From NCBI RefSeq assembly GCF_030547245.1, contig NZ_JAUOQT010000002.1, positions 62,001-126,000 on the forward strand: a stretch of 64,000 bases of DNA, given 5' to 3'. The notes under the pieces are model-generated. The model made no database searches. It had not been told where the DNA came from and was given only the letters and a program-made list of their open reading frames with translations. The DNA comes from Oceanihabitans sp. 2_MG-2023. Its GTDB lineage: Bacteria > Bacteroidota > Bacteroidia > Flavobacteriales > Flavobacteriaceae. This document shows, piece by piece, positions 1,489 through 31,444 of the stretch. The position numbers and the translations under genes were made by a program. Each line of letters opens with the position of its first letter. Position 1 is the first letter of the stretch.

Positions 1489-1563
1489 ATAGATAATTGA
1501 TTAATAGCAAGTTAAATGTAATGTAATTTGTTAAACTATTCTATTTTTTTCGACAAAACGATT

Positions 1564-18330: not shown

Positions 18331-19164
18331 TTATTCTGGAATTACTAATAATGGTATTATAGGATGAGAACCTATATTTTTCACTACTGGTTCTTTAATA
18401 AGGTTTTCAATAAAACTATGCTGATAGTTTACTATTGCAAGTAAATCAATACTTAACTCTTCAATAAAATCATTAATTACTGTTGCTTTTTTAGCATAAT
18501 TTGGCATCCAATGAAAACTGTGCTCAAAATCTTGTAAAAATCTATCCAACTGATTAAGGTTATACTGTTGTACTTTACTTAACTCTTTTCTTTCTTGAAT
18601 ATGAATTATTTTAATCGTAGCATTATATAACTGGGTTATTTCGCTTAAGGCTTCTAGTTCTGTATCTTTATAAAAACGATTATAATCTGTTGGAAAAGCA
18701 ACTTTTTTTGGTTTTACAAAATCATACTCATCTGGCACAATCAAAACTGGGCAGGATTTTATATTTTTAAAAACAGATATGGTATTACTACCAAAGAAAA
18801 TGGTGTCTTTATTAGATGCTCCTTTTGTTCCCATAACTACCAGACTAATTTGATATTCTTTAATCGTATTTAAAATAGCTGAAGTTAATTTTTCAGTACT
18901 TAAAACAATTTCAAAATCATGATTTTCGGTATCATTAGAAACCATAGCCAGCTCTTTTAAATCGAGTAACTTTTGCCATGCCTTCGTTTTTAGTTCTTCT
19001 AAAAAATGCCCAGTAACAAGGCTTCTTTGCGCTAAAGCCTCATTATTTATAGTATTAAAAAAATAAAAGGTACAAGATTCTTTTGCATATAATTTTAAGG
19101 CATAAACTATAGCACTCCAAGCATTATCAGAGAAATCTGTTGGTATTAATATATTCTTTTTCAT
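18331..19164 (-). CDS. Universal stress protein, two Usp domains
   Basis: 277 residues, two Usp folds in tandem. Domain 1 (1-140) starts MKKNILIPTDFSDNAWSAI and keeps the ATP-binding motif G-2x-G-9x-G-S as GTKGASNKDTIFFGS. Domain 2 (about 145-277) lacks it and ends with a conserved NYQHSFIENL block and IPLLVIP. Third of three Usp genes in the operon, with gaps of 9 and 14 bp. Such tandem Usp proteins are usually stress- or hypoxia-induced. In this locus they sit beside a FixL-like kinase and a receiver-Crp regulator. Confidence 0.93.
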   Translation of the reverse strand: MKKNILIPTDFSDNAWSAIVYALKLYAKESCTFYFFNTINNEALAQRSLVTGHFLEELKTKAWQKLLDLKELAMVSNDTENHDFEIVLSTEKLTSAILNTIKEYQISLVVMGTKGASNKDTIFFGSNTISVFKNIKSCPVLIVPDEYDFVKPKKVAFPTDYNRFYKDTELEALSEITQLYNATIKIIHIQERKELSKVQQYNLNQLDRFLQDFEHSFHWMPNYAKKATVINDFIEELSIDLLAIVNYQHSFIENLIKEPVVKNIGSHPIIPLLVIPE

Positions 19165-19173
19165 TTTTAATAT

Positions 19174-20016
19174 TTATAATTTTGAAGGAATAACTAAAAA
19201 TGGAATATTAAGATGAAACCCTATTTGATTAATAGTTGATTTAAAGAATAAGTTTTCAAAAAAGGAGTGTTTATTATTTATCATTACTAGAAAATTAATT
19301 CTAGCTTTTCTTTGAAATTCATTTATAGCGTCTTCCACATTATTATTTTTCACATCATGAAATAAATGTGCTACATGTTTAAAATACAGTTCTAGCTTTT
19401 GTTTATTTATTTGTTGTTTTTCGGAAAGTGATTCTCCATAATTAACGTGTAAAACATTAACACGAGAGGTATATGCTGATGCCATCGCTACCAATGGAAG
19501 CATTTGTTTATCTTGAAAAGCTACCTCATAATCTGTTGGGAATAAAATTTCATGAAGTGGTTCAAACTCAAAATTACTAGGAATAGCTAAAACTGGCACT
19601 CTAATGCTTTTAAAAACATGAACCGTATTAGAGCCAAACAACACACCTTGCACATTGGAAGCTCCTTGCGTACCCATAACCACCAAATCTATATTTTCAC
19701 GATTTACGATTTCTTTTATTTCTGGAATTAAATTATTGAAAGCAGAAATGGTTTCAATAGTATGTTTAGGGTTAGAAAATTTTTCATTAATTCTGGTCTT
19801 AATAGTAGCTAAACCTTTTAAAGAGCTTTCTTTGGCAGCATCAAACACACTGAATTGCGCATTGCTAACTTGCATATATTCCATTTGATAAATAACTGGA
19901 GTATATGTATTTAAAATGTAAAAGAAACATGTTTCATTTTTAAATAAGTGTAGTGCATATTGAATAGCATTCCATGCATTATTAGAAAAATCGGTTGGTA
20001 ATAATATTCTTTTCAT
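19174..20016 (-). CDS. Universal stress protein, two Usp domains
   Basis: 280 residues, paralogue of its neighbours. Domain 1 begins MKRILLPTDFSNNAWNAIQYAL and has the nucleotide-binding motif as GTQGASNVQGVLFGS. Domain 2 is degenerate at that site but keeps NNKHSFFENLFF and FLVIP. Middle gene of the three-Usp operon, 14 bp after 20031-20882 and 9 bp before 18331-19164. Sequence divergence between the paralogues is high, so the duplications look old. Confidence 0.93.
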   Translation of the reverse strand: MKRILLPTDFSNNAWNAIQYALHLFKNETCFFYILNTYTPVIYQMEYMQVSNAQFSVFDAAKESSLKGLATIKTRINEKFSNPKHTIETISAFNNLIPEIKEIVNRENIDLVVMGTQGASNVQGVLFGSNTVHVFKSIRVPVLAIPSNFEFEPLHEILFPTDYEVAFQDKQMLPLVAMASAYTSRVNVLHVNYGESLSEKQQINKQKLELYFKHVAHLFHDVKNNNVEDAINEFQRKARINFLVMINNKHSFFENLFFKSTINQIGFHLNIPFLVIPSKL

Positions 20017-20030
20017 GGTGTTTATTTTTT

Positions 20031-20882
20031 TTAATATTCACGTCTTAAGTTTTGTAACACTAGCAATGGAACTTCAAGTTTTAAACTTATTTTATCTATA
20101 GTAGATTGAAATAATATATTCTCTAAATAAGAATGCTGTGTATTTACCATAATTAAAAAATCTATAGTATTATCGGAAACATACGTATTAATAGCGCTAT
20201 CTATCTTTTTATTATCTGTAGTGTAATAGCTTATATTATTTTTACAAATAGTTTCTTCAATAAATGCTTTATTATCTTCCTGTCTGAAAGACAATTTGCC
20301 ATTTTTAGATACATATAGCATGTCTATTTTTGTTCTAAACGGGGAAAGCAAATCACATATTAATTTTAACTCTCTTCTCTTATATGGAATTAAATAATTA
20401 GTTGGAAACAGCGCGTGTTTAGGTTGTTGATATTTATAATCTTCTGGAATCGCCAATATTGGGCATCGTACATATTTTAAAACCTGTAGTGTATTGCTTC
20501 CAAAGGTTATATTTCTTGTATTGCTCTTTCCTTTAGTTCCCATCACTACGAGGTCTATATTTTTACCATCTACGATTAAATCGGATTCGTCAAGCAAAGA
20601 GTTATAAGCAGATATCGTATAATAGGTAAATCTAGGATTTGGAGAAATTTCTTTAACAGTACGCAATAAGTCTGCTAAATTCTCTTCTGATTGCAACTTA
20701 ACACGTTTCAAAATATCATTAAAATCTGTTCTACTTAATAAAGCTTCATGATTATATACCTCAGCTTGATATGCATGCATGAAGTAAAACTCTACTTTTT
20801 GATATTTAAAAAACTCTAATGCATAGGTAATAGCATTCATTGCATTATTGGAAAAATCGGTTGGAATCATTATTTTCATCAT
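20031..20882 (-). CDS. Universal stress protein, two Usp domains
   Basis: 283 residues. MMKIMIPTDFSNNAMNAITYALEFF opens the first Usp domain, with GTKGKSNTRNITFGS as the nucleotide-binding motif. The second domain has lost the motif but retains NTQHSYLENILFQSTIDKI. First gene of the operon 20882-17852. The 70 bp upstream contain the box TGATATTTATCA (minus strand) and, 23 bp on, TAATTTTA, the arrangement shared by four promoters in this island. Confidence 0.93.
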   Translation of the reverse strand: MMKIMIPTDFSNNAMNAITYALEFFKYQKVEFYFMHAYQAEVYNHEALLSRTDFNDILKRVKLQSEENLADLLRTVKEISPNPRFTYYTISAYNSLLDESDLIVDGKNIDLVVMGTKGKSNTRNITFGSNTLQVLKYVRCPILAIPEDYKYQQPKHALFPTNYLIPYKRRELKLICDLLSPFRTKIDMLYVSKNGKLSFRQEDNKAFIEETICKNNISYYTTDNKKIDSAINTYVSDNTIDFLIMVNTQHSYLENILFQSTIDKISLKLEVPLLVLQNLRREY

Positions 20883-20908: not shown

Positions 20909-20951
20909 TAAAATTAAAAAAGTAAACTAAAAAAAACTATGATAAATATCA
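20909..20951 (-). promoter_or_regulatory. Crp/Fnr-type box and -7 element of the three-Usp operon
   Basis: On the minus strand TGATATTTATCA (20951-20940) is followed after exactly 23 bp by TAATTTTA (20916-20909), a one-mismatch TAnnTTTG. The box centre falls about 29 bp before the -7 element, near -41.5, as in class II Crp/Fnr activation. Confidence 0.65.
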
Positions 20952-20983
20952 GTAAACCAAGAAGAAAAGAGTTTCATAAAATA

Positions 20984-21015
20984 AAAAAAGCCAGATTTTT
21001 TAATCTGGCTTTTTC
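20984..21015 (-). terminator. Terminator of the 21136-21981 Usp gene
   Basis: A perfect stem AAAGCCAGATT / AATCTGGCTTT with a T-run on the minus strand. It separates the single Usp gene from the downstream three-Usp operon, so these are two transcription units. Confidence 0.8.
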
Positions 21016-21103
21016 ATGGATTAATAGCAAGTAATTTAATTCATGTAGTATAACATAAACCCCTTAAATTACACTATAAATATACTTTTATAAAAAATGA
21101 GAA

Positions 21104-21123
21104 ACTATGACTAAAGTCATAGT
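21104..21123. promoter_or_regulatory. Perfect 9-bp inverted repeat downstream of a Usp gene
   Basis: ACTATGACT and AGTCATAGT are perfect inverted arms around AA, and contain TGA-N6-TCA like the regulatory boxes nearby. It starts 12 bp after the Usp stop. It could be an RNA hairpin or a further protein-binding site; no -7 element lies at the 23-bp spacing. Confidence 0.45.
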
Positions 21124-21135
21124 TCCATTTTTTTT

Positions 21136-21981
21136 TTAAATTTCATGCATTACTAAAAAGGGAATATCTGTATGGTAACTAATTTCTTCAACTTTATTAT
21201 GAAATAATATTTGCTGAAAATAATTAAGATTTTTAGCTACCATAGTTATTAAGTCTACATCTCTGCTTTCAATAAAGCACTGCACAGCATCTTCCACTTT
21301 TTTACTTGTTAAATAATGAAAACTATACTTGTAATTATTAAAATAATCTGCTAATAATTCTTTATTTTTTTCTTGATTAGTATTTAATTTTTCAGCCTCT
21401 GTTTTAATATGTATAATTCTTAATTGCGAAGTGGTTCTGTCTAAAATTTTGGAAAGCGGAAATAAGGTTTGCAGGTTATAATTTATAGAATAATCTGTAG
21501 GAAAAGCTATTTCTTCAATTTTATGATACTTTGCGTTTTCTGGCACAACTAAAGTGGTGCATTTTACTTTTGTTATTACATCTGCAGTATTACTCCCAAC
21601 AATATATTTTTTAAGACCAGAAGCTCCTTTTGTTCCCATTACAATGGTATTTATTTTTTTTTCTTGAACTTGCTCTCTTATCGATTCAATAAAAAAATTA
21701 TAATCTGAAACGGTATAAAACTTATGATTGGTATTATTAGGTATTTGATTAGCGATTTTTTTTAAAAGTGCTACCAACTTCTTTTTAGAAGGCTTAATAT
21801 ATTCGTCTTGTATCGTAGTCGAAGTAGCTATATATGAGGTATCATCCATAGCTATATTATTTAGTTTATTTACATGGAGCAAATAAAAATTACATATGGA
21901 ATACTCGTAAAAATGCAAAGCATATTTAATAGCATTCCATGAATTCTCAGAAAAGTCTGTTGGTAATAAAATATTATACAT
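21136..21981 (-). CDS. Universal stress protein, two Usp domains
   Basis: 281 residues, the most divergent of the four. MYNILLPTDFSENSWNAIKYALHFYEY opens domain 1, and the ATP motif is GTKGASGLKKYIVGS. In domain 2 the HS block of the other three is replaced by KNLNYFQQILFHN. Monocistronic: it has its own promoter (box TGATATTCGTCA, then TAACTTTG) and a terminator at 20984-21015. It lies 85 bp downstream of the receiver-Crp gene. Confidence 0.93.
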   Translation of the reverse strand: MYNILLPTDFSENSWNAIKYALHFYEYSICNFYLLHVNKLNNIAMDDTSYIATSTTIQDEYIKPSKKKLVALLKKIANQIPNNTNHKFYTVSDYNFFIESIREQVQEKKINTIVMGTKGASGLKKYIVGSNTADVITKVKCTTLVVPENAKYHKIEEIAFPTDYSINYNLQTLFPLSKILDRTTSQLRIIHIKTEAEKLNTNQEKNKELLADYFNNYKYSFHYLTSKKVEDAVQCFIESRDVDLITMVAKNLNYFQQILFHNKVEEISYHTDIPFLVMHEI

Positions 21982-22001
21982 TGGTATTCTACTTAAAAAA
22001 A

Positions 22002-22044
22002 CAAAGTTAATTTTAACAGTCTTTTTAAAATATGACGAATATCA
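22002..22044 (-). promoter_or_regulatory. Crp/Fnr-type box and perfect -7 element of the single Usp gene
   Basis: On the minus strand TGATATTCGTCA (22044-22033), a 23-bp gap, then TAACTTTG (22009-22002), an exact TAnnTTTG. This is the best -7 element of the four promoters with this architecture. Confidence 0.7.
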
Positions 22045-22066
22045 CTTTGATACTATTTTTAAAAAA

Positions 22067-23122
22067 TTAAACTATTTGTTCTAATTTTTCAATATCTAGA
22101 ATCTTAATATTTCTACCTTCAATTTCAATTAAACCTTTCTTTTTAAAACTAGACAAGGTTCGTATTAGACTTTCGGTGGCAATACCAGCAGCACTAGACA
22201 AATCACTACGCGAAATTTTTATAGGCTGGTTAGGTTTGCAATTTAATTTTTCGGAAAATTTTAAAATGGTACTTGCTGTTTTTTTACTTACAGAGCTATA
22301 CGCCATTTCCAATAATTGATCTTTAACTCCTTTTAAATCGTCTGTAAGCAACTGTATAAGTTCTAAAGTCACTTTATGATTAGTATTTAAAATACCTTTT
22401 AGTTGATCTTTAGAAACACCAACTAATTTAGTTTCTTTAATTGCTGCTGCAGATTCTTGATACACTATATTTTGAATAAACGAGGTGTAACCAAACAAGT
22501 CATCCTCTTTATACAAAGCAGTTGTAAGCTCTTTGCCTTGCTCGTCTAACTTATAACATTTTACGATACCTTGAATTACTAAAAATATATAATTGGAGTT
22601 TTGACCTTCTTTATAAATTATATCGCCTTGTAAAAAATGAAAAGGTTTTCCATTGTCATCAAAATAGTTTTTAAGATCGTTAAGTGTTCTTATTTCATCC
22701 TCTTCTTCTGTTTCTATTTCTGTATGCTCCTTATCTCTTATGTCTTTTAAAATAGATGCTCTAGCAATTCTACTTTCAATAGCACTAATAAGTTCATTTT
22801 CATCAAAAGGCTTTGTTATATAATCATCTGCACCAAGATCCATTCCTTTTCTTACATCTTTTCGTTCAGTTTTTGCAGATAGAAAAACAAACGGAATGTT
22901 TTGTGTATTTTCATTTTTAAACAAAGTTTCTAATACTCCATAACCATCTAATTCTGGCATCATGACATCACAAACTATAATATCTGGAAGCTCTTTAATT
23001 GCTGCTTCTACTCCCAACTTTCCATTTGCAGCTGTAACGACATTATAGTTAGAAAGCTCTAAAAGTTCGGCTGTGTTTTCTCTTAAAACAACATCATCTT
23101 CAATTAATAAAATTTTCTTCAT
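22067..23122 (-). CDS. Response regulator fused to a Crp/Fnr-type transcription factor
   Basis: 351 residues in three modules. Receiver (1-125): acidic pair D9/D10, phospho-acceptor D52 in CDVMMP, S82 and K104 in KPF. Cyclic-nucleotide-binding fold (about 150-270): FHFLQGDIIYKEGQNSNYIFLVIQG. Crp-type winged helix (about 290-345): ISRSDLSSAAGIATESLIRTLSSF. Aligned with E. coli CRP, the recognition helix keeps Glu181 and Arg185 while Arg180 is Thr, so it should read TGA half-sites. The start codon overlaps the stop of the partner kinase. No Cys cluster for an Fe-S centre is seen. It is the likely activator of the four TGA-N6-TCA promoters nearby. Confidence 0.93.
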   Translation of the reverse strand: MKKILLIEDDVVLRENTAELLELSNYNVVTAANGKLGVEAAIKELPDIIVCDVMMPELDGYGVLETLFKNENTQNIPFVFLSAKTERKDVRKGMDLGADDYITKPFDENELISAIESRIARASILKDIRDKEHTEIETEEEDEIRTLNDLKNYFDDNGKPFHFLQGDIIYKEGQNSNYIFLVIQGIVKCYKLDEQGKELTTALYKEDDLFGYTSFIQNIVYQESAAAIKETKLVGVSKDQLKGILNTNHKVTLELIQLLTDDLKGVKDQLLEMAYSSVSKKTASTILKFSEKLNCKPNQPIKISRSDLSSAAGIATESLIRTLSSFKKKGLIEIEGRNIKILDIEKLEQIV

Positions 23123-24363
23123 TATTGGGCAATATTTGGAATTGTAATTATAAATGTGGATCCTTTATTTTCTTCACTTGTAAACGATATGGTTCCGCCT
23201 AAATTTTCAAAATGGGTTTTTATTATGTTTAGTCCAATTCCTGTTCCTTGTGTTAGCAATGCATTTTCTGCTCTAAAATAACGGTTAAATATATTTTTTT
23301 GGTCTTTTTCAGGAATTCCAATACCATTATCGATTATTTGAATGATTGTATTTTCTTTATCTTGATGAACAATTATTTTTACCGTTGAGTTTTCTGGTGA
23401 ATATTTAATAGCATTATGCACTAGGTTTGACAAAGCTAATTCCATAATTTTCTCGTCTTGTGTTAACGAAATATGATCAATATTTTCTGGATAACTTATT
23501 TTTTGTCCAAATTTTAAAAGCATATTTGCATTGTAAACTACTTCGTCTACAACTTTACTTAATTTAAAAGTACTAAACTTATAATTTACATTACCTGTTT
23601 CTAATTTTTCAATAGATAAAAAATCATTTAATATATTATTTAGATAGTGCACTTTATTGGTAATTGTTTCAATATGCTTATCTCTCTTTGCTTGTTGTTC
23701 TTCTAATTTATACTTACTTAACAACATGGTGGATGTTAAAATACCGCTTAATGGTGTTTTAAACTCATGCGATACTAGCGATAAGAATTTTGTTTTGAGT
23801 TCGTTAAGTTCGATTTCCTTTTTAAGTGCATTTTTTATTTTGTTCTCTGCTTCAATTCGTTTTTTATTTTCTGCATCCAACTTAATATTGACGCCTTTTA
23901 ATTCATCTATAGTAGCGCTTAATTCTTTGGTTCTTTGAAATACTTTCTCTTCCAGATCTTCATTTAACTGCTGTATTTCTAGTTCTTGTTGTTTACGTAC
24001 AGAAATATCAATTACCAAAGCCATTATGTATCCTTCGCCATCCATTTTAAACGGATTTAATCCAGCCTCTACAGGAAAGCTGCTTCCATCTTTATGTGCT
24101 CCAAACAAATCTCGACCTCGTCCCATTGGTCTACTTTCCTTGTGTTTCATAAAACCATTAAAATGTGCTCCATGACCGGCATGATAATTTTTTGGAATAA
24201 GTACATTTAACGTTTGGTTTATAAGTTCGCCTTTTTTATAGCCAAACATGAGATCTGTTGAAGCGTTTGTAAAAACAATATTCTGTTTTTCATCTACAAC
24301 AATTACACCTTCTGAAACGGCTTCAAAAAGTACATTAAAAATCTCCTGGTCTATTTTAAACAT
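23122..24363 (-). CDS. Soluble PAS sensor histidine kinase, FixL-like PAS domain
   Basis: 413 residues with no membrane segment. The PAS domain (about 5-122) is followed by a coiled coil (125-190), HisKA with H199 in SHEFKTPLSG, and HATPase_c with N-box HNAIKYS, G1 DNGIGIP and G2 GTGIGLNI. From the IPKNYH stretch to KDGSSFP the PAS aligns without gaps to the haem PAS of Bradyrhizobium FixL as I recall it: H64 falls on proximal His200 and R84 on distal Arg220, while His214 is Arg here. Haem and oxygen sensing are therefore plausible but not proven. Translationally coupled to the receiver-Crp gene downstream. Confidence 0.9.
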   Translation of the reverse strand: MFKIDQEIFNVLFEAVSEGVIVVDEKQNIVFTNASTDLMFGYKKGELINQTLNVLIPKNYHAGHGAHFNGFMKHKESRPMGRGRDLFGAHKDGSSFPVEAGLNPFKMDGEGYIMALVIDISVRKQQELEIQQLNEDLEEKVFQRTKELSATIDELKGVNIKLDAENKKRIEAENKIKNALKKEIELNELKTKFLSLVSHEFKTPLSGILTSTMLLSKYKLEEQQAKRDKHIETITNKVHYLNNILNDFLSIEKLETGNVNYKFSTFKLSKVVDEVVYNANMLLKFGQKISYPENIDHISLTQDEKIMELALSNLVHNAIKYSPENSTVKIIVHQDKENTIIQIIDNGIGIPEKDQKNIFNRYFRAENALLTQGTGIGLNIIKTHFENLGGTISFTSEENKGSTFIITIPNIAQ

Positions 24364-24399
24364 AAATAATTATAATGTTTTAATACTGCTTTAAAAATA

Positions 24400-24407
24400 C
24401 AAAACTA
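24400..24407 (-). promoter_or_regulatory. -7 element of the kinase/regulator operon
   Basis: TAGTTTTG on the minus strand, an exact TAnnTTTG, 37 bp upstream of the kinase start. The TGA-N6-TCA box at 24443-24454 is 35 bp away, 12 bp more than in the other promoters, so any autoregulation would use a different geometry. Confidence 0.5.
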
Positions 24408-24442
24408 TATGTCCTAAACCACACTTATTTAATTCTAATAAC

Positions 24443-24485
24443 TGATTAATATCATAATTTAATAGCTAACAGGTAATTATATTTA
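24443..24485 (+). promoter_or_regulatory. Crp/Fnr-type box and -7 element of the TerB-like/ABC operon
   Basis: TGATTAATATCA (24443-24454), then 23 bp, then TATATTTA (24478-24485), ahead of the ATG at 24507. It lies in the divergent region between the two-component operon and the ABC operon. Confidence 0.65.
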
Positions 24486-24506
24486 TACTTAGGAAACACC
24501 TACAGT

Positions 24507-24923
24507 ATGAAAAAAAAGCACAAAACAACTCTAAATTTCTATAAAAACTTAGGAAATCTATTTTACGCCATAGCTGCTGCAGATAAAAGTATCACGCCTT
24601 TAGAGGTGATAACTTTGAAAGAAATTATTAAATCGAAATGGCTAAAAACAGAGACTTTAAAAGATACATTTGGCACGGATAGCGCTTACCAAATCGAATT
24701 TATTTTCGATATACTGCATCGTGAAAACAATTTAGATGTAGAAAAATGCTACGCAGATTTTATAAACTATAAAAAGGCACAAAATCATTTTTTTTCTCCA
24801 TCTGTTAATCAATTAATATTACAAACTGCTAATGCGATTGCCAATAGTTTTTCAGGAAAAAATAAATCCGAACTAATACTACTTGCGAAGCTTGAAATGG
24901 AATTAAGAAAGACAGATATATAA
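24507..24923 (+). CDS. TerB-like helical protein
   Basis: 138 residues, all helical, with no signal peptide. The N-terminal stretch YKNLGNLFYAIAAADKSITPLEVITLKEIIKSKW has the pattern of TerB/TerB-like domains (IAaaDgxixxxE), found in tellurite and general stress proteins. It is the first gene of an operon running to 28568 with gaps of 17 bp, 6 bp and then overlaps. Its promoter carries the TGA-N6-TCA box. The TerB call is a pattern match only. Confidence 0.65.
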   Translation: MKKKHKTTLNFYKNLGNLFYAIAAADKSITPLEVITLKEIIKSKWLKTETLKDTFGTDSAYQIEFIFDILHRENNLDVEKCYADFINYKKAQNHFFSPSVNQLILQTANAIANSFSGKNKSELILLAKLEMELRKTDI

Positions 24924-24940
24924 TTATAAATAATAAGATC

Positions 24941-25546
24941 ATGAAAAAAACAATATTACTATTCGCTCTATTACTGATCCCTCTTTTTGGGTTTACACAA
25001 ACCTTAGAAAACATAGACTACATTTCAACATTTAAAGAAGACCTAGCAGCTATCAAAAAAGATAATCAATGGGCTTTTATAAATAAAGAAGGCTCCATTG
25101 TTATAGATTTTCGAGAAGATTTAACGGAAACAAAAACAGAAGCTGGCTCTTCTCCGGTTTTTAATAACGAAAGATGCTTAATCCAACAACAAAAAGATGG
25201 TATAAACTATTATGGATTTATTGATACATCTGGAAAAACTGTTATTGAACCTCAGTTTTTAAATGCTACTACCTTTTCCAATAATTATGCTATCGCATTA
25301 GAATTAGTTAAAGTAGATTTAGGTAAAAACAACCTGCTTAATAAGGACATCGTGAAATACAACTATTTTCAAGTAGTTATAGATTCTTCCGGAAAGGTTA
25401 TAACTTATTTAACAGAAGCTACTCCTGTAGAATTATCGACTACAAATTTAAAGAAAGCACCAGTGATATCATCCAAGTTCCTTTCTGAAAAATTAGTAGC
25501 TGTTATGACAAAAAACAAACAATGGATTATAAAAAAAATAGACTAA
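24941..25546 (+). CDS. Exported WG-repeat-like protein
   Basis: 201 residues. A signal peptide (ILLFALLLIPLFGFTQ) is followed by repeats of the WG/KWG type: DNQWAFINKEGSIVIDF, then GINYYGFIDTSGKTVIEPQF, then a weaker one near the C-terminus (KNKQWIIKKI). Such repeats form beta-propeller-like or solenoid surfaces in the periplasm. It lies between the TerB-like gene and the MFP gene of the same operon; whether it assists the exporter is unknown. Confidence 0.75.
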   Translation: MKKTILLFALLLIPLFGFTQTLENIDYISTFKEDLAAIKKDNQWAFINKEGSIVIDFREDLTETKTEAGSSPVFNNERCLIQQQKDGINYYGFIDTSGKTVIEPQFLNATTFSNNYAIALELVKVDLGKNNLLNKDIVKYNYFQVVIDSSGKVITYLTEATPVELSTTNLKKAPVISSKFLSEKLVAVMTKNKQWIIKKID

Positions 25547-25552
25547 TACCAA

Positions 25553-26632
25553 ATGAGATATTTATTTGCAATAGCCTTACTATTTTTTTGTTTCTCCTGC
25601 TCTAAAAAGGAGGGCAAAATCCTTCCTTCAGAACAAGATTTAACAGAGTCTGTTTACACTTCTGTCACTATACAACCAGATAGTTTATACCAAGCTTATG
25701 CCATTGTTGCAGGTATTTTAGAGAAGAATTTTGTTGAAGAAGGTGATAACATAAAAAAAGACGAAGCCATCTCTCAAATAATAAACAACACACCAGTTTT
25801 AAATACGCAAAACGCAAAGCTATCTTTAGATTTAGCAAAAGAAAATTACAACGGAAACGCTGCTATTTTATTTGGAATTAAAGAGGAAATAGAAGCTGCT
25901 ATTCTGAAGTATAAAAACGATTCGATTACCTTTTTCAGACAACAAAATCTTTGGAAACAAAACATTGGATCTAAAGCTGAATTTGACACAAAACAATTAA
26001 ACCACCAACTGTCTAAAAACAATTTAGCTGTACTTAAAAACAAATACAACCAAACTAAAAACCACTTAAACATAAGTGTTAAGCAAGCACAAAACAACTA
26101 CCAAACCGCATTAATTAGCACGAAAGATTTCACTGTAAGAAGTGCTATTCATGGCAAAGTTTATGCCCTCTATAAAGAACCTGGAGAATTAGTGAATACC
26201 ATGGAACCTGTTGCTTCTATTGGAAGTGCTTCTACCTTTATCATTGAAATGTTGGTAGATGAAGTAGATATCGTTAAAATTATAAAAAACCAAGATGTTT
26301 TAGTAACGTTGGATGCTTATACAGGTAAAGTATTACAAGGCAAAGTCTCAAAAATATATCCTAAAAAAGATGCGAGAAATCAAACTTTTAAAGTGGAAGC
26401 CCTATTTATAAAACCCCCAAAAGTACTGTACCCAGGACTTTCTGGCGAAGCAAATATTATAATATCTAAAAAGAAAAAGATTTTAACGGTTCCAAAAAGT
26501 TACATCACAGATAACAACCAAGTAAACACAGATGATGGTTTAGTGCCTATTACAACAGGTTTAGAAAATATGGAATTCTCGGAAGTCTTAAGTGGGATTA
26601 CCAAAGACACCTATATATATAAACCAGAATAA
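25553..26632 (+). CDS. Efflux periplasmic adaptor (MFP/HlyD-type) lipoprotein
   Basis: 359 residues. The lipoprotein signal ends FCFSC (Cys17, followed by SKK). The lipoyl/barrel-sandwich half-motif VAGILEKNFVEEGDNIKKDEAISQI is followed by a long helical hairpin (about 80-180), the return half GKVYALYKEPGELVNTMEPVASIGS and beta-barrel domains. This is the adaptor of a MacAB-type exporter, acting between the FtsX-type permease encoded next (stop/start overlap TAATG) and an outer membrane channel that is not encoded here. Confidence 0.92.
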   Translation: MRYLFAIALLFFCFSCSKKEGKILPSEQDLTESVYTSVTIQPDSLYQAYAIVAGILEKNFVEEGDNIKKDEAISQIINNTPVLNTQNAKLSLDLAKENYNGNAAILFGIKEEIEAAILKYKNDSITFFRQQNLWKQNIGSKAEFDTKQLNHQLSKNNLAVLKNKYNQTKNHLNISVKQAQNNYQTALISTKDFTVRSAIHGKVYALYKEPGELVNTMEPVASIGSASTFIIEMLVDEVDIVKIIKNQDVLVTLDAYTGKVLQGKVSKIYPKKDARNQTFKVEALFIKPPKVLYPGLSGEANIIISKKKKILTVPKSYITDNNQVNTDDGLVPITTGLENMEFSEVLSGITKDTYIYKPE

Positions 26633-27894
26633 TGGTAAACTGGACCGTCATATTAGACATTGCAAAAAAGCAACTAATAACCAAATTTAAGTCTACTGCT
26701 ATTGCTGCTTTAGGTGTTACTTTTGGTATTGGCGCTTACATTACTTTAGTTAGCTTTATGACAGGTTTAAATAATATGCTAGACGATTTAATTTTAAACC
26801 AAACCCCTCACATTCATATTTATAACGAAATTGAACCTTCAAAAAAACAACCCGTAGATGGCTATGATGCGTTTAAAAACAGCTTTAATGTGGTGCATTC
26901 CATTAAACCTAAATTAAGTCAAAAAAAAATTCATAACGCTTCACCAATTATTCATTTTTTAAATAAAAACAAAGAAGTAAAAGGTGCCATTCCTCAAGTA
27001 AAAATGCAAATATTTTACATAGCTGGATCTATTGAAATTGCAGGTAATCTAACAGGAATACAACCAGTTGAAGAAGCGAGACTATTTAATTTTAGAGATT
27101 ATATTATTGCGGGTTCTCCCGAAAAACTTAAAAACACAGAAAACGGCATATTATTAGGCTCTGGTATTGCAAAAAAAATGGCATTATCTGTTGGTGACAG
27201 AGTTCAAATAAGCACGATAAAAGGAGATATATTTCCTTTAAAAATTGTAGGATTTTATCAAAGTGGCATTTCCGATATAGATGCCATTCAAAGTTTTGTA
27301 AACTTAAAAACTGTACAACGTATTTTAGGAGAAGCACAAAATTACATCACAGATATTAATGTAAAGCTTTATGATATCGAAAAAGCACTACTCTTATCTC
27401 AAAAAACAGAGCAACAATTTAATGTAACTGCAATAGATATTAAAACTGCTAATGCACAATTTGAAACAGGAACAAATGTTAGAAACCTTATTACTTACGC
27501 CGTATCTATAGCCTTATTAATCGTCGCTGGTTTTGGTGTTTATAATATTTTAAGCATGCTTATTTATGAAAAGATGAATGATATTGCTATCTTAAAAGCA
27601 ATCGGCTTTTCGGGGAATGATGTGCAGTACATTTTTATGAGTCAAGCATTGATAATTGGTATCATAGGTGGTATTCTAGGACTATTAATAGGCTTAATAT
27701 TCACGAATATAATTAGCACTATTCCGTTTAAAACAGATGCATTAGCAAAAGTAGATACCTATCCTATTGATTTTAATGTTTGGTATTATATAATAGGTTT
27801 CTCCTTTGCAATCATCTCTACCTTTTTTGCAGGTTATTTACCATCGCTTAAAGCTAAAAAAATAGATCCAGTAAAAATAATAAGAGGACAATAA
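26632..27894 (+). CDS. ABC transporter permease, FtsX/MacB-LolC type
   Basis: 420 residues. One N-terminal transmembrane helix (about 20-45), a large periplasmic domain (about 50-280) and three C-terminal helices with the FtsX signature (FGVYNILSMLIYEKMNDIAILKAIGFSGNDVQYIFMSQALIIGIIGGILG). The end KAKKIDPVKIIRGQ is typical of the LolC/MacB permease class. These exporters move lipoproteins, peptides or antimicrobials by mechanotransmission rather than a classical channel. The start overlaps the MFP stop, and the stop overlaps the ATPase start. Confidence 0.92.
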   Translation: MVNWTVILDIAKKQLITKFKSTAIAALGVTFGIGAYITLVSFMTGLNNMLDDLILNQTPHIHIYNEIEPSKKQPVDGYDAFKNSFNVVHSIKPKLSQKKIHNASPIIHFLNKNKEVKGAIPQVKMQIFYIAGSIEIAGNLTGIQPVEEARLFNFRDYIIAGSPEKLKNTENGILLGSGIAKKMALSVGDRVQISTIKGDIFPLKIVGFYQSGISDIDAIQSFVNLKTVQRILGEAQNYITDINVKLYDIEKALLLSQKTEQQFNVTAIDIKTANAQFETGTNVRNLITYAVSIALLIVAGFGVYNILSMLIYEKMNDIAILKAIGFSGNDVQYIFMSQALIIGIIGGILGLLIGLIFTNIISTIPFKTDALAKVDTYPIDFNVWYYIIGFSFAIISTFFAGYLPSLKAKKIDPVKIIRGQ

Positions 27895-28568
27895 TGGAAA
27901 CAGTTCTAGAAGCAAAAAACATAAATAAATACTTTAAAAAACCTGTACTTTTTCATGTGCTTAAGGATATTAATTTTAAAATTAATAAAGGCGAATTCGT
28001 TTCCATAATGGGTAAATCTGGTTGTGGAAAATCTACCTTACTCTACATCCTATCTACTATGGACACAGAATACGAAGGAGAATTAAATTTGAATAACGAT
28101 TTAATAACCGGAGAAAGCAGACAAAAACTAACGTTTATTAGAAATAAACATATAGGCTTTGTATTTCAGTTTCATTATTTGCTTTCCGAGTTTACAGTTT
28201 TAGAAAACGTGATGCTTCCTGCTAAAAAACTAGGCGAAAAAAGTATTAAAGAAATTGAAAAAGACGCACTTGAAAAACTTAAAATATTAAACATCGAACA
28301 TTTAGCACATAAGCGAGCATCTCAAGTCTCTGGAGGAGAAAAACAACGTGTTGCAATTGCTAGAGCGCTTATAAATAACCCATTAATTATTATGGGAGAT
28401 GAACCTACCGGAAACTTAGATAGCCATAATGCAGATAATGTCTTTAATATATTTAAAAAATTGAGCGTAGAGGATAACCTATCCTTATTAATTGTCACAC
28501 ATGACGAAGATTTCGCTAATCGTACCGATCGTATTATTACTATGGAAGATGGTAGAATAATTAGCTAA
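27894..28568 (+). CDS. ABC transporter ATP-binding protein (MacB/LolD class)
   Basis: 224 residues, a complete ABC ATPase: Walker A GKSGCGKST, Q-loop FQFHYLL, signature VSGGEKQR, Walker B LIIMGDEPTGNLD and switch His in IVTHD. Closest in pattern to LolD/MacB ATPases. It powers the permease encoded just upstream. It is the last gene of the TerB-like / WG / MFP / permease / ATPase operon, followed by a new regulated promoter at 28586-28628. Confidence 0.95.
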   Translation: METVLEAKNINKYFKKPVLFHVLKDINFKINKGEFVSIMGKSGCGKSTLLYILSTMDTEYEGELNLNNDLITGESRQKLTFIRNKHIGFVFQFHYLLSEFTVLENVMLPAKKLGEKSIKEIEKDALEKLKILNIEHLAHKRASQVSGGEKQRVAIARALINNPLIIMGDEPTGNLDSHNADNVFNIFKKLSVEDNLSLLIVTHDEDFANRTDRIITMEDGRIIS

Positions 28569-28585
28569 TAATTAACACCTTAAAC

Positions 28586-28628
28586 TGATTTTAATCATAT
28601 TATTCTTATAATTTTATTAGTAATTTTA
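28586..28628 (+). promoter_or_regulatory. Crp/Fnr-type box and -7 element of the DnaJ/MscS operon
   Basis: TGATTTTAATCA (28586-28597), then 23 bp, then TAATTTTA (28621-28628), 22 bp before the ATG at 28651. Same architecture as the three other promoters of the island. Confidence 0.65.
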
Positions 28629-28650: not shown

Positions 28651-28863
28651 ATGAAAACAGAACAGGAGTTATTAACGCAAATTACAGAGCTAACCTATAA
28701 CATTGAGACTAACTATCCAGAGTTATATACGTTTTTAATGGAAGATCCAAGTACGATTCCCTCCATAGAACACCCAGATATAAACCCTACGGTTTTGCAA
28801 GATTACTTAAATACGTTAAAGCAAAAGTTAAAACACCATATTGAAAATCATAAAACGAAATAA
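28651..28863 (+). CDS. Small acidic protein, unknown function
   Basis: 70 residues, cytoplasmic, with helix-rich ends and a Pro-rich middle (EDPSTIPSIEHPDINPTVLQDYL). No known family recognised. It is the first gene of the DnaJ/CbpM/MscS/flavin-binding operon and its stop is directly next to the dnaJ-like start (no gap), which supports real translation. By position it could be a chaperone accessory factor; this is inference. Confidence 0.75.
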   Translation: MKTEQELLTQITELTYNIETNYPELYTFLMEDPSTIPSIEHPDINPTVLQDYLNTLKQKLKHHIENHKTK

Positions 28864-29763
28864 ATGGCATTTATAGATTATTATAAAGCTTTAGGAGTTT
28901 CTAAAACAGCATCTGAAAAAGACATAAAAAAAGCCTACAGAAAATTGGCTCGCAAACATCATCCCGATTTAAACCCGAATGATAAAGAAGCGGAAAAAAA
29001 GTTTAAAGAAATCAATGAGGCTAATGAAGTATTGAGTAATCCTGAAAATCGCAAAAAATACGATCAGTATGGAGAGCATTGGCAAAACTCGGAAGCCTAC
29101 GAACAAGCAAAACAACAGCAAAGCAGACAGCAACGGGCGTACCAAGGGCAAGCAGGAGGTTCTGGCGGTTATAGTGAAAGAGATTTCGAAGATATTTTTG
29201 GCAATATGTTTGGCGGGCAAGCTTCAGGAAGAAGAGGTTCAGGGAATTCTAGATTTAGAGGACAAGATTTTAATGCAGAACTTCAGTTAGATCTTAAAGA
29301 TGTTTATGAAGAGCACAAGCGTACGCTTACTGTAAATAATAAAAACATACGAATTACTATTCCTGCTGGAGTAGAAAACGGGCAAACCATTAAGATTAAA
29401 GGGCATGGTGGAAAAGGAGTTAATGGTGGACCAAATGGTGATTTATTAATTCAGTTTTCCATTCATAATCACACAAAATTCAAAAGAAATAAAGACAACC
29501 TTTACACTACTGTAAATTTAGATTTATATACCGCAATGCTTGGTGGCGATTTGATGGTGGATACGTTTACTAGCAAAGTTAAATTAACAATTAAACCAGA
29601 GACGCAAAACGGAACGAAAGTGAAGTTGAAAGGAAAAGGATTTCCGAAATACAAAAAAGCAGGACAATTTGGCGATTTATATATTACATATCAACTAAAA
29701 ACACCTACAAAGCTTACGGATAAAGAGAAAGAGTTATTTACAGAACTTCAAAAACTAAGATAA
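28864..29763 (+). CDS. CbpA-like DnaJ chaperone
   Basis: 299 residues. J domain (1-70) with HPD in HHPDLNP, a Gly/Ser/Gln-rich linker (about 90-140) and the DnaJ C-terminal peptide-binding domains ([43 protein letters not shown]). There is no Cys-rich zinc finger, so it belongs to the CbpA class rather than housekeeping DnaJ. It should stimulate DnaK under stress. The next gene encodes a CbpM-like modulator, which supports the assignment. Confidence 0.93.
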
Positions 29764-29765
29764 TT

Positions 29766-30062
29766 ATGGAAGTAACAGATTTAATTTCGATCAACACCTT
29801 TTGCTCGCATTACAAAGTGCCTACAACGTTTATCCATGATTTAAAGGAATATGAACTAATTGAAATTGTGGTTTTAAATAATGATCATTTTATTAAAACA
29901 ACACAAATTATCGAGGTTGAAAAACTGATCCGTTTACACTTTGATCTTCATATTAATTTAGAAGGTTTAGATGCTGTTTATCATTTATTACAGCGCGTAG
30001 AAAACATGCAAAACAAAATAACCTCACTTCAAAATACATTAAGACTTTACGAAGATTTATAG
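29766..30062 (+). CDS. CbpM-like chaperone modulator
   Basis: 98 residues. An N-terminal MerR-like helix-turn-helix region (LISINTFCSHYKVPTTFIHDLKEYELIEIV) is followed by ..EGLDAVYHLLQRVENMQNKITSLQNTLRLYE, the layout of CbpM, which binds the J domain of CbpA and blocks its interaction with DnaK. It starts 2 bp after the CbpA-like gene. The family call rests on this pattern and on its neighbour. Confidence 0.82.
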   Translation: MEVTDLISINTFCSHYKVPTTFIHDLKEYELIEIVVLNNDHFIKTTQIIEVEKLIRLHFDLHINLEGLDAVYHLLQRVENMQNKITSLQNTLRLYEDL

Positions 30063-30072
30063 ACATATAAAA

Positions 30073-30996
30073 ATGGAAACCATACAGCAATTATTTCTAG
30101 AGTATCCTCTTGTGAAAAGCATACTTAAATACCTTATAATCGCTGGATTTGTATTATTGTGTATTCAGTTTATTAGAAGGTTTTTAAAACGAAATATAGC
30201 GAATACTTCCGTAAGGTATAAATCGCAAAAAGGAGTAGAATTACTAGGCTATTTTATACTTGCTTTTGTTACTATTTTATATTTCACCGGAAGCATTAAA
30301 GACTTTACCATTACACTAGGGTTGCTTTCCGCAGGATTAGCTTTTACGTTACAAGAATTAATATTAAGTATTGCAGGCTCTGTATATATTTTTATTGTAA
30401 AAGTATACGAACCAGGAGATCGAATTGAAATTAATGGAATAAAAGGAGATGTTATTGACGTAGATAGTATTTATACCACCATGATGGAAATTGGACAATG
30501 GGTAGAAAGTGATAATTATACAGGTAGAATTGTAAAACTAAGTAATGCGTTTGTATTTAAAGGTCCTGTTTATAACTACTCCAAAGATTTCCCTTTTATT
30601 TGGGACGAGTTCAATTTACCTATTCGTTATGGTTCTGATATTGCGTTGGCAAAATCCATAATCATTAAAGCTGCGACTACCACACTTGCTGAATATACTA
30701 AAGCGTCTAAAGAACAATGGCAGGAAGTTGTAAAAAAATATTATATAGAGGATGCTATGGTAGAACCTTCACTCGCAACTACGTTAACAGACAACTGGAT
30801 TTCATTTAACTTAAGATATATTGTAGATTACAAAAAAAGAAGATATACTAAACACCAATTAAATGATTTGATTAGAAGAGAAATTGAAACTACTAATGGT
30901 AAAGTTGTTTTGGCTTCGGAAACAATAGAGCTTATTAAAATACCAGATTTAAAAATAGATAATTCAAACACTAAAACCACGAAAAGCCATGTTTAA
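30073..30996 (+). CDS. MscS-family mechanosensitive channel
   Basis: 307 residues. Membrane segments at about 15-35, 58-75 and 85-110, the last being the pore helix (LGLLSAGLAFTLQELILSIAGSVYIF), followed by the MscS beta domain (YEPGDRIEINGIKGDVIDVDSIYTTMMEIG, then GRIVKLSNAFVFKGPVYNYS). It gates on membrane tension during osmotic downshock. It overlaps the start of the next gene by 8 bp. In this operon it may act in general envelope stress. Confidence 0.92.
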   Translation: METIQQLFLEYPLVKSILKYLIIAGFVLLCIQFIRRFLKRNIANTSVRYKSQKGVELLGYFILAFVTILYFTGSIKDFTITLGLLSAGLAFTLQELILSIAGSVYIFIVKVYEPGDRIEINGIKGDVIDVDSIYTTMMEIGQWVESDNYTGRIVKLSNAFVFKGPVYNYSKDFPFIWDEFNLPIRYGSDIALAKSIIIKAATTTLAEYTKASKEQWQEVVKKYYIEDAMVEPSLATTLTDNWISFNLRYIVDYKKRRYTKHQLNDLIRREIETTNGKVVLASETIELIKIPDLKIDNSNTKTTKSHV

Positions 30997-31444
30997 AAAT
31001 TTAGAAGAAAAAGAAACGGAATACATTTTAGAAAACAACTACATTGGTCAATTAGGATACATCTTTAAAAAAGCACCTTATGTGATACCAATTACTTACT
31101 TTTTTGACAAAGTAAGCAATGCGATTATATGTTACTCTGGAGATGGACACAAAATGAACGCGATGCGACAAAACCCAACAATTTCTTTGCTCGTTTCAGA
31201 TGTGGATGACGTAACCAATTGGAAATCTGTTCTAGTGCATGGCAAATTTGAACAACATTTTGGTAGTGATGCAAAAGCCTATTTACACAAATTCTCTTTA
31301 GGAATTAAAGATATTATTATAGAAAAAGAACATACCAAAGCAAATTTTATTAGTGACTTTTCTAGTAAAATTTATAAAGATGAAATTCCTGCTGTATTTT
31401 TAATAAAAATCGAAAAAATTACTGGAAAAAAACGATCTAAATAA
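30989..31444 (+). CDS. Pyridoxamine 5'-phosphate oxidase-like flavin-binding protein
   Basis: 151 residues, one split-barrel flavin-binding domain: ENNYIGQLGYIFKKAPYVIPITYFFD, then IICYSGDGHKMNAMRQNPTISLLVSDVDDVTNWKSVLVHGKFE. Such proteins bind FMN, F420 or haem, and are often part of hypoxia regulons (for example the Mycobacterium DosR regulon also contains Usp proteins). True PNP oxidase activity is unlikely from the short length. It is the last gene of the operon, with a terminator at 31454-31488. Confidence 0.85.
   Translation: MFKNLEEKETEYILENNYIGQLGYIFKKAPYVIPITYFFDKVSNAIICYSGDGHKMNAMRQNPTISLLVSDVDDVTNWKSVLVHGKFEQHFGSDAKAYLHKFSLGIKDIIIEKEHTKANFISDFSSKIYKDEIPAVFLIKIEKITGKKRSK

Follow-up and report, generated by a model that had tools for sequence, protein, structure and literature searches.

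Why should several promoters in one stretch of bacterial DNA carry the same short dyad at exactly the same distance from the same -7 element? We addressed this question in a 64,000-nt stretch (the window) of the genome of Oceanihabitans sp. 2_MG-2023 (3.69 Mb, 30 contigs). An earlier reading of its sequence (the original prediction) had described four such promoters as a local regulon with class II Crp/Fnr geometry and had implied as regulator a protein encoded among them, here called receiver-Crp. We think it likely that the boxes are sites for Crp/Fnr-family activators, that two regulators of this family use them, and that the genes behind them form a low-oxygen or redox regulon.

We scanned for the strict pattern TGAY-N4-RTCA, 23 bp, TAnnTTTR, with the reversed pattern as the control. 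The four predicted boxes and their 23-bp gaps to TAATTTTA, TAACTTTG, TATATTTA and TAATTTTA are exact in sequence, coordinates and spacing. A fifth box, absent from the original list, stands before a probable small RNA; its -7 element was placed by pattern scan and comparison with relatives, and the first eight features below by exact pattern scan.

20940..20951, minus strand: box 1, TGATATTTATCA, promoter of the three-Usp operon
20909..20916, minus strand: -7 element TAATTTTA of the three-Usp promoter
22033..22044, minus strand: box 2, TGATATTCGTCA, promoter of the single Usp gene
22002..22009, minus strand: -7 element TAACTTTG of the single-Usp promoter
24443..24454, plus strand: box 3, TGATTAATATCA, promoter of the TerB-like/ABC operon
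24478..24485, plus strand: -7 element TATATTTA of the TerB-like/ABC promoter
28586..28597, plus strand: box 4, TGATTTTAATCA, promoter of the operon of a 70-amino-acid (aa) open reading frame (ORF) and DnaJ
28621..28628, plus strand: -7 element TAATTTTA of the 70-aa ORF/DnaJ promoter
21108..21119, minus strand: box 5, TGACTTTAGTCA, before the probable small RNA
21077..21084, minus strand: -7 element TATATTTA of the small-RNA promoter

The window holds 20 strand-wise TGAY-N4-RTCA sites, and these five have a TAnnTTTR at spacing 23; the remaining spacings between 5 and 45 yield at most one such pairing each. The expected count at a single spacing is 0.056 (binomial P = 2.5e-9; this becomes 1.9e-6 if the -7 element is taken to be as frequent as in the intergenic DNA nearby, where it is commoner). 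The box alone (TGAT-N4-RTCA) occurs 16 times in the window against a shuffle mean of 4.3, with palindromes counted on both strands.

Across the whole genome, the strict pattern occurs 17 times and its reversed control not once. Only 5 of the 17 sites lie in the window, and the same code recurs among 198 Bacteroidia genomes (see below), so the description of the regulon as local does not hold. With TGAT boxes and spacings of 21 to 25 there are 18 matches against 5 reversed, 14 of the 18 at spacing 23; with TGAY boxes and spacings of 10 to 40 there are 53 against 41, the surplus sitting at 23 (the tally gives each site a single gap, which for at least one site is the shortest). The looser TGA-N6-TCA at spacings of 22 to 24 gives a less clear result (22 against 12), and the box without a -7 element (TGAY-N4-RTCAT) is not enriched in this genome (144 against 184 reversed). 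Far above its control, the strict pattern also lies mostly outside genes: 14 of the 17 sites are outside ORFs of at least 150 aa, the ORFs enclosing two others (L002 and L023) look like products of over-long start codons, and one (L018) lies within a gene on the opposite strand. Beyond the window, the downstream genes encode, by Pfam, FixS (CcoS), Cytochrom_C, Ribosomal_S30AE (a hibernation factor), Thioredoxin_9, OmpW, CBS and Radical_SAM proteins, the last of which appears HemN-like; further targets are a pyridine nucleotide-disulphide oxidoreductase, a citrate-type transporter and two small unnamed proteins.

To follow the promoters in relatives, we scanned named genomes with receiver-Crp, confirmed 145 relatives and kept 80 loci. 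The set used here comprises the 58 loci (L060-L117, 1.09 Mb) that cover most of the protein; L118-L139, which matched chiefly its receiver part, were excluded. These loci contain 168 boxes at spacing 23, between 0 and 12 at each other spacing from 5 to 45, and none at spacing 23 in the reversed control. Two of the 168 lie inside ORFs of at least 150 aa and 166 outside, and the median distance from the end of the -7 element to the ATG is 24 nt. An ORF begins within 300 bp downstream of 154 boxes, encoding Usp proteins in 84 cases (in 38 loci), TerB-like proteins in 13, WG-repeat proteins in 8, CcoS-like proteins in 4, and S30AE-like proteins and DnaJ in 3 each. Fourteen boxes have no ORF by this rule; of 12 inspected, several stand before genes that the rule missed, Usp genes included.

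Position is conserved as well as pattern. Counting a box at spacing 23 from TAnnTT in the 200 bp ahead of each locus's best match, we found boxes before UspD in 31 of 40 loci and UspA in 37 of 41 (a count that does not tell Usp paralogs apart), before the TerB-like gene in 25 of 25, and before the 70-aa ORF in 5 of 6. The DnaJ gene, which stands second in its operon in the window, has a box upstream in 1 of 7 loci. The "TerB-like" protein itself (24507-24923), box-preceded wherever it was found, has no Pfam match at E ≤ 0.001, the cut-off used for the window's proteins.

Could such a pattern arise by chance in AT-rich DNA, or could terminator hairpins have been taken for boxes? Box 5 does sit in a palindrome that could also serve as a terminator after UspD, and a bulged form of its flanking stem can still be drawn in relative L060. 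In relative L061, however, that stem is broken while the box core, spacing and -7 element stay, and for the whole set both the spacing histogram and the reversed controls contradict this explanation, which we regard as scarcely credible. Chance and base composition as the origin of the pattern are ruled out by the histograms and controls, and the original view that the repetition is hard to explain by chance is borne out by these and by the window binomial.

The consensus of the boxes is MTGAY-N4-RTCAT, and the 168 sites are also conserved at positions outside the search pattern: T at -35 (93%), A or C at -48 (85%), T or G at -33 (89%) and T at -32 (71%). These coordinates borrow their frame from Flavobacterium psychrophilum, for which PMC9723704 reports TAnnTTTG at -12 to -5; in that frame the center of the box falls at -41.5. 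With a dyad at this center and a fixed distance to the core promoter, a real regulon of the class II Crp/Fnr geometry originally proposed is strongly supported by the spacing, the controls and the conservation of position. From -41.5, a bound activator dimer would make contact with RNA polymerase on the TAnnTTTG promoter of Bacteroidota.

Which protein would bind there? The Oceanihabitans genome has four matches to the Crp-type helix-turn-helix (HTH), and two of them share almost one recognition helix: GIATESLIRTLSSFKK in receiver-Crp and GTATESAIRILSQFKK in an Fnr-like protein. Both fit the form GxA(T/S)ESxIRxLSxFKK, which we propose as the reader of the boxes. Receiver-Crp is encoded amid the window's boxes:

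22067..23122, minus strand: receiver-Crp regulator, a single protein of 351 aa with Response_reg, cNMP_binding and HTH_Crp_2 domains (Pfam)

The Fnr-like protein (C23:531739-532413) is encoded near cbb3-oxidase genes, about 2.5 kb from the ccoS box, and carries an N-terminal CxxC and further Cys. In FNR, iron-sulfur (Fe-S) sensing uses an N-terminal Cys cluster plus an internal Cys. A further box (C23:532451-532464; L056 at about 2169-2276) occupies the interval that separates the Fnr-like gene from a divergently oriented neighbor, apparently a metal ATPase gene.

We then compared boxes with regulators in 198 Bacteroidia genomes. The strict pattern occurs 917 times in them against 57 reversed, with at least one site in 165 genomes and a reversed site in 45. 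Genomes were classed, from lists typed by hand, as having receiver-Crp (E ≤ 1e-60) or the Fnr-like protein (E < 1e-39). The mean number of boxes per genome is 1.63 with neither regulator (n = 57), 4.35 with the Fnr-like protein only (n = 46), 4.41 with receiver-Crp only (n = 58) and 9.95 with both (n = 37), against controls of 0.26 to 0.33; these means ignore phylogeny, genome size and base composition, and the class cut-offs were set after the tables were seen. Two unusual receiver-Crp matches came to light in the relatives. A contig labelled Deltaproteobacteria (L100) bears a 45% identical receiver-Crp with its kinase, either by transfer or by misbinning, and at G057:C1:1599617-1600661 the receiver and Crp parts are two adjacent matches, one with an internal stop, which may be a natural split or a broken gene.

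If receiver-Crp bound something else and were a mere neighbor, the Fnr-like protein alone would use the boxes. The near-identical helix, its location near cbb3 genes and the existence of boxes in genomes without receiver-Crp all suit that idea, which we nevertheless judge improbable. One genome with receiver-Crp (G165) has 8 boxes against a control of 0; of its 4 HTH matches 3 were readable, and these revealed no second protein with such a helix. The receiver-Crp-only class exceeds the class with neither regulator, and boxes cluster near the receiver-Crp gene and before Usp genes. In G165, the 7 boxes read include promoters of Usp, ccoS-ccoN, HemN-like and cytochrome c genes.

The converse, that receiver-Crp alone uses the boxes, as the original prediction implied, is more improbable still. 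Its gene does stand amid the window's five sites, and many boxes in relatives are placed likewise. Yet genomes without receiver-Crp bear boxes too, and the Fnr-like-only class averages nearly as many as the receiver-Crp-only class. We inspected seven such genomes (G134, G194, G021, G086, G104, G144 and G162; 51 of their 59 boxes examined): a box precedes ccoS in 4 of the 7 and a cytochrome c-type protein in 4 of the 7, and none of the 51 boxes precedes a Usp gene. In Oceanihabitans and G165 together, 3 of 24 boxes stand directly before a Usp gene (against 0 of 51; Fisher P = 0.03), a restriction that rests on nine whole genomes; Usp genes were counted only where they follow a box, with a model derived from the Usp proteins found in the relatives themselves. 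Receiver-Crp is a plausible and good candidate activator, as first implied, but not an exclusive one, since a protein with a near-identical helix is independently associated with the boxes. We read the code as common to both regulators and assign the Usp arm to receiver-Crp; the assignment is the weaker half of this reading.

On this two-regulator reading, the Fnr-like protein would serve mainly respiration (ccoS, cytochrome c, hemN-like genes), and receiver-Crp would add a Usp, chaperone and ABC arm and a small RNA, and would also handle the respiratory targets of genomes that lack the Fnr-like protein. Receiver-Crp is probably switched by phosphorylation from the kinase encoded beside it:

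23122..24363, minus strand: PAS histidine kinase (Pfam; PDB matches of the PAS domain)

This kinase adjoins receiver-Crp in 56 of the 58 loci. Against the PDB, the best 13 of 20 matches of its PAS domain are FixL or E. coli Dos (DosP) entries (E = 7e-13 to 4.5e-11), and the next match follows at 6.4e-6. His64 and Arg84 of the window's kinase align with a His and an Arg of these entries, which we take to be the heme contacts (proximal His, distal Arg). Heme sensing by the kinase is plausible here, and clearly not universal among relatives. His alone is kept in 7 loci, one or both residues are replaced in 7, and no kinase was matched in L116. PAS domains left unaligned include those of L076, L078-L080, L083, L085, L086, L093, L094 and L106, five of these ten from Winogradskyella.

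The signal of the two-regulator system is likely to be falling oxygen or a redox change. According to PMC9723704, cbb3 oxidase and heme genes of F. psychrophilum are up under oxygen limitation. That the boxes respond chiefly to nitric oxide, redox or starvation rather than to oxygen is a possibility that we hold in some regard without favoring it: some targets are thiol, transport or stress genes, and the PAS domain is altered or unalignable in many relatives. Against it, ccoS recurs as a non-Usp target (in the Oceanihabitans genome, in G165, in those four of the seven genomes and in four receiver-Crp loci of the named genomes), and so do cytochrome c-type genes.

Besides the limits stated with the co-occurrence means and the Usp comparison, several observations tell against a low-oxygen regulon shared by two regulators. 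Genomes with neither regulator still stand above their control (1.63 against 0.28). In two relatives (L172 and L176), Ser replaces the third Cys of the Fnr-like protein. A HemN-like box was found in just 1 of the 7 genomes without receiver-Crp, against 4 for ccoS. Only 25 of 58 loci keep both His and Arg of the PAS domain (24 if just the 56 adjacent kinases are counted), and the PAS region is unalignable in 18 of 58 (L089 and L110 run off contigs). Autoregulation of the kinase/receiver-Crp operon through the same promoter form was considered and rejected, with a box in 1 of 40 loci. Finally, PMC8510549 predicts that homologs of Crp/Fnr encoded in one Flavobacteriales and one Saprospiraceae genome, which may or may not be relatives of the present proteins, are MalR-like and carbon-sensing.

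What does the fifth box drive? The stretch behind it, between UspD and UspA, is conserved in L060 and L061, contains no conserved ORF as judged by eye, and probably encodes a small RNA:

20983..21072, minus strand: probable small RNA of about 90 nt with a 5' hairpin, an unpaired CTTGCTATTAATC and an intrinsic terminator (ends predicted from folding and relatives)

L060 and L061 keep the same box core, spacing and -7 element before it, and promoter, conserved structure and terminator occur together in all three sequences. The stem flanking the box 5 palindrome is bulged in L060. Folded from the predicted +1, the RNA has a z score of -4.46 in the window and of -4.31 and -5.77 in the two relatives. 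In four Winogradskyella loci (L079, L080, L082 and L084) the corresponding position also bears a box, and both the core (with one change in L079) and a 5' hairpin, here shorter, are present; a TAnnTTTR -7 element is present in L079 only, no terminator is evident in the four, and the two copies that were folded are no stabler than shuffles (z = 1.38 and -0.51). Over the seven sequences, 5 of 7 hairpin pairs change on both sides, giving a covariation score of 0.571 that none of 500 shuffles reaches (slid versions reach up to 0.184), although the structure was read from the same seven sequences, which favors its score. Rfam gave one match to the small RNA at E 0.1, far below the gathering score, and nothing near gathering scores for the second copy of the core.

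That core, the 13-mer CTTGCTATTAATC, occurs twice in the window (1499-1511 and 21019-21031, both minus strand) and in six exact copies in the genome; with at most one mismatch there are 27 places against 5 reversed. Of the 27, 8 follow a stop codon of the opposite strand within 90 nt, 8 fall inside ORFs, and others lie before start codons; such mixed positions fit a reading of the core as a terminator tag only in part. The unpaired CTTGCTATTAATC may pair with GATTAATAGCAA elements in the 3' regions of other mRNAs.

The remaining genes behind the window's boxes are as follows:

18331..20882, minus strand: three Usp genes in tandem (20031-20882, 19174-20016, 18331-19164)
21136..21981, minus strand: single Usp gene, UspD (Pfam Usp)
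24507..28568, plus strand: operon of a 138-aa "TerB-like" protein, a WG-repeat protein, an HlyD-type protein, an ABC permease and an ABC ATPase (ORF list, Pfam)
28651..31444, plus strand: operon of a 70-aa ORF, a J-domain protein, a 98-aa protein, an MscS-like protein and a pyridoxamine-oxidase-like protein (ORF list, Pfam)

In the three-Usp operon, the first gene (20031-20882) matches Pfam Usp, and the second and third are named by similarity to relatives' Usp proteins. The permease and ATPase were named from sequence alone. The DnaJ/MscS operon said to be headed by box 4 is present, but its first gene is the 70-aa ORF (28651-28863; no Pfam match), ahead of the J-domain protein; DnaJ and MscS are the original labels and do not come from Pfam. 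Its last gene (30989-31444) has a weak NimABCDEF match below the cut-off.

Together, these results enlarge the first observation, which stands: Crp/Fnr regulation of this form appears to be class-wide, with a fused receiver-Crp activator beside an Fnr-like one. The data show sequence, spacing, conservation, the genes behind the boxes and co-occurrence directly, whereas binding, activation, phosphorylation and the sensing of oxygen or heme are inferred. In its fullest form, which we offer only tentatively, the proposal is a low-oxygen regulon of the class Bacteroidia in which one code (MTGAY-N4-RTCAT, 23 bp, TAnnTTTR) would be read by an Fe-S Fnr-like protein and by a phosphorylation-switched receiver-Crp fusion driven by a FixL-like heme kinase; the fusion would do the jobs of FixJ and FixK in one step, add a Usp arm, and drive a small RNA with CTTGCTATTAATC-GATTAATAGCAA pairing. 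Literature titles and abstract openings, a coverage that excludes most subscription journals, yielded no mention of this box or of a receiver-Crp regulator in Bacteroidota. If the proposal is correct, the sharp promoter code makes the regulon listable in thousands of genomes, provides a clean test case of two regulators with a common site, and places cbb3 respiration, ribosome hibernation and the universal stress proteins under a single switch.

Several known systems come close. The FNR box of E. coli and the FixK box, TTGAT-N4-ATCAA, act in class II promoters. Like the FNR/FixK promoters of Proteobacteria, those described here have a Crp/Fnr dyad with a TGAT/ATCA core at -41.5 before cbb3 and stress genes. 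They differ in their outer bases, which are A or C and T rather than T and A (T at -48 in 11% and A at -35 in 2% of the 168 sites), in the Y and R at the inner positions, and in being joined to the Bacteroidota -7 element TAnnTTTG. FnrS of E. coli is a small RNA and, like the RNA proposed here, comes from a Crp/Fnr-type promoter and has a terminator hairpin; there is no demonstrated sequence relation, and the present RNA was seen only in the window, its close relatives and, in part, Winogradskyella. By description it also resembles Rfp18 and other flavobacterial intergenic small RNAs of F. psychrophilum, and Rfp18 is tied to proteases in PMC9723704. A further parallel is with the FixL-FixJ-FixK and hFixL-FxkR-FixK cascades of rhizobia, as outlined in PMC7888657, which likewise combine a PAS kinase (FixL being among the closest PDB matches here), a receiver, a Crp-family regulator and cbb3 targets. 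Unlike the PAS domain of the FixL cascades, that of the present kinase varies or fails to align in many relatives. In place of separate FixJ receiver and FixK Crp proteins, the receiver and Crp parts form a single 351-aa protein, and because both are one protein there is no transcriptional step between them.

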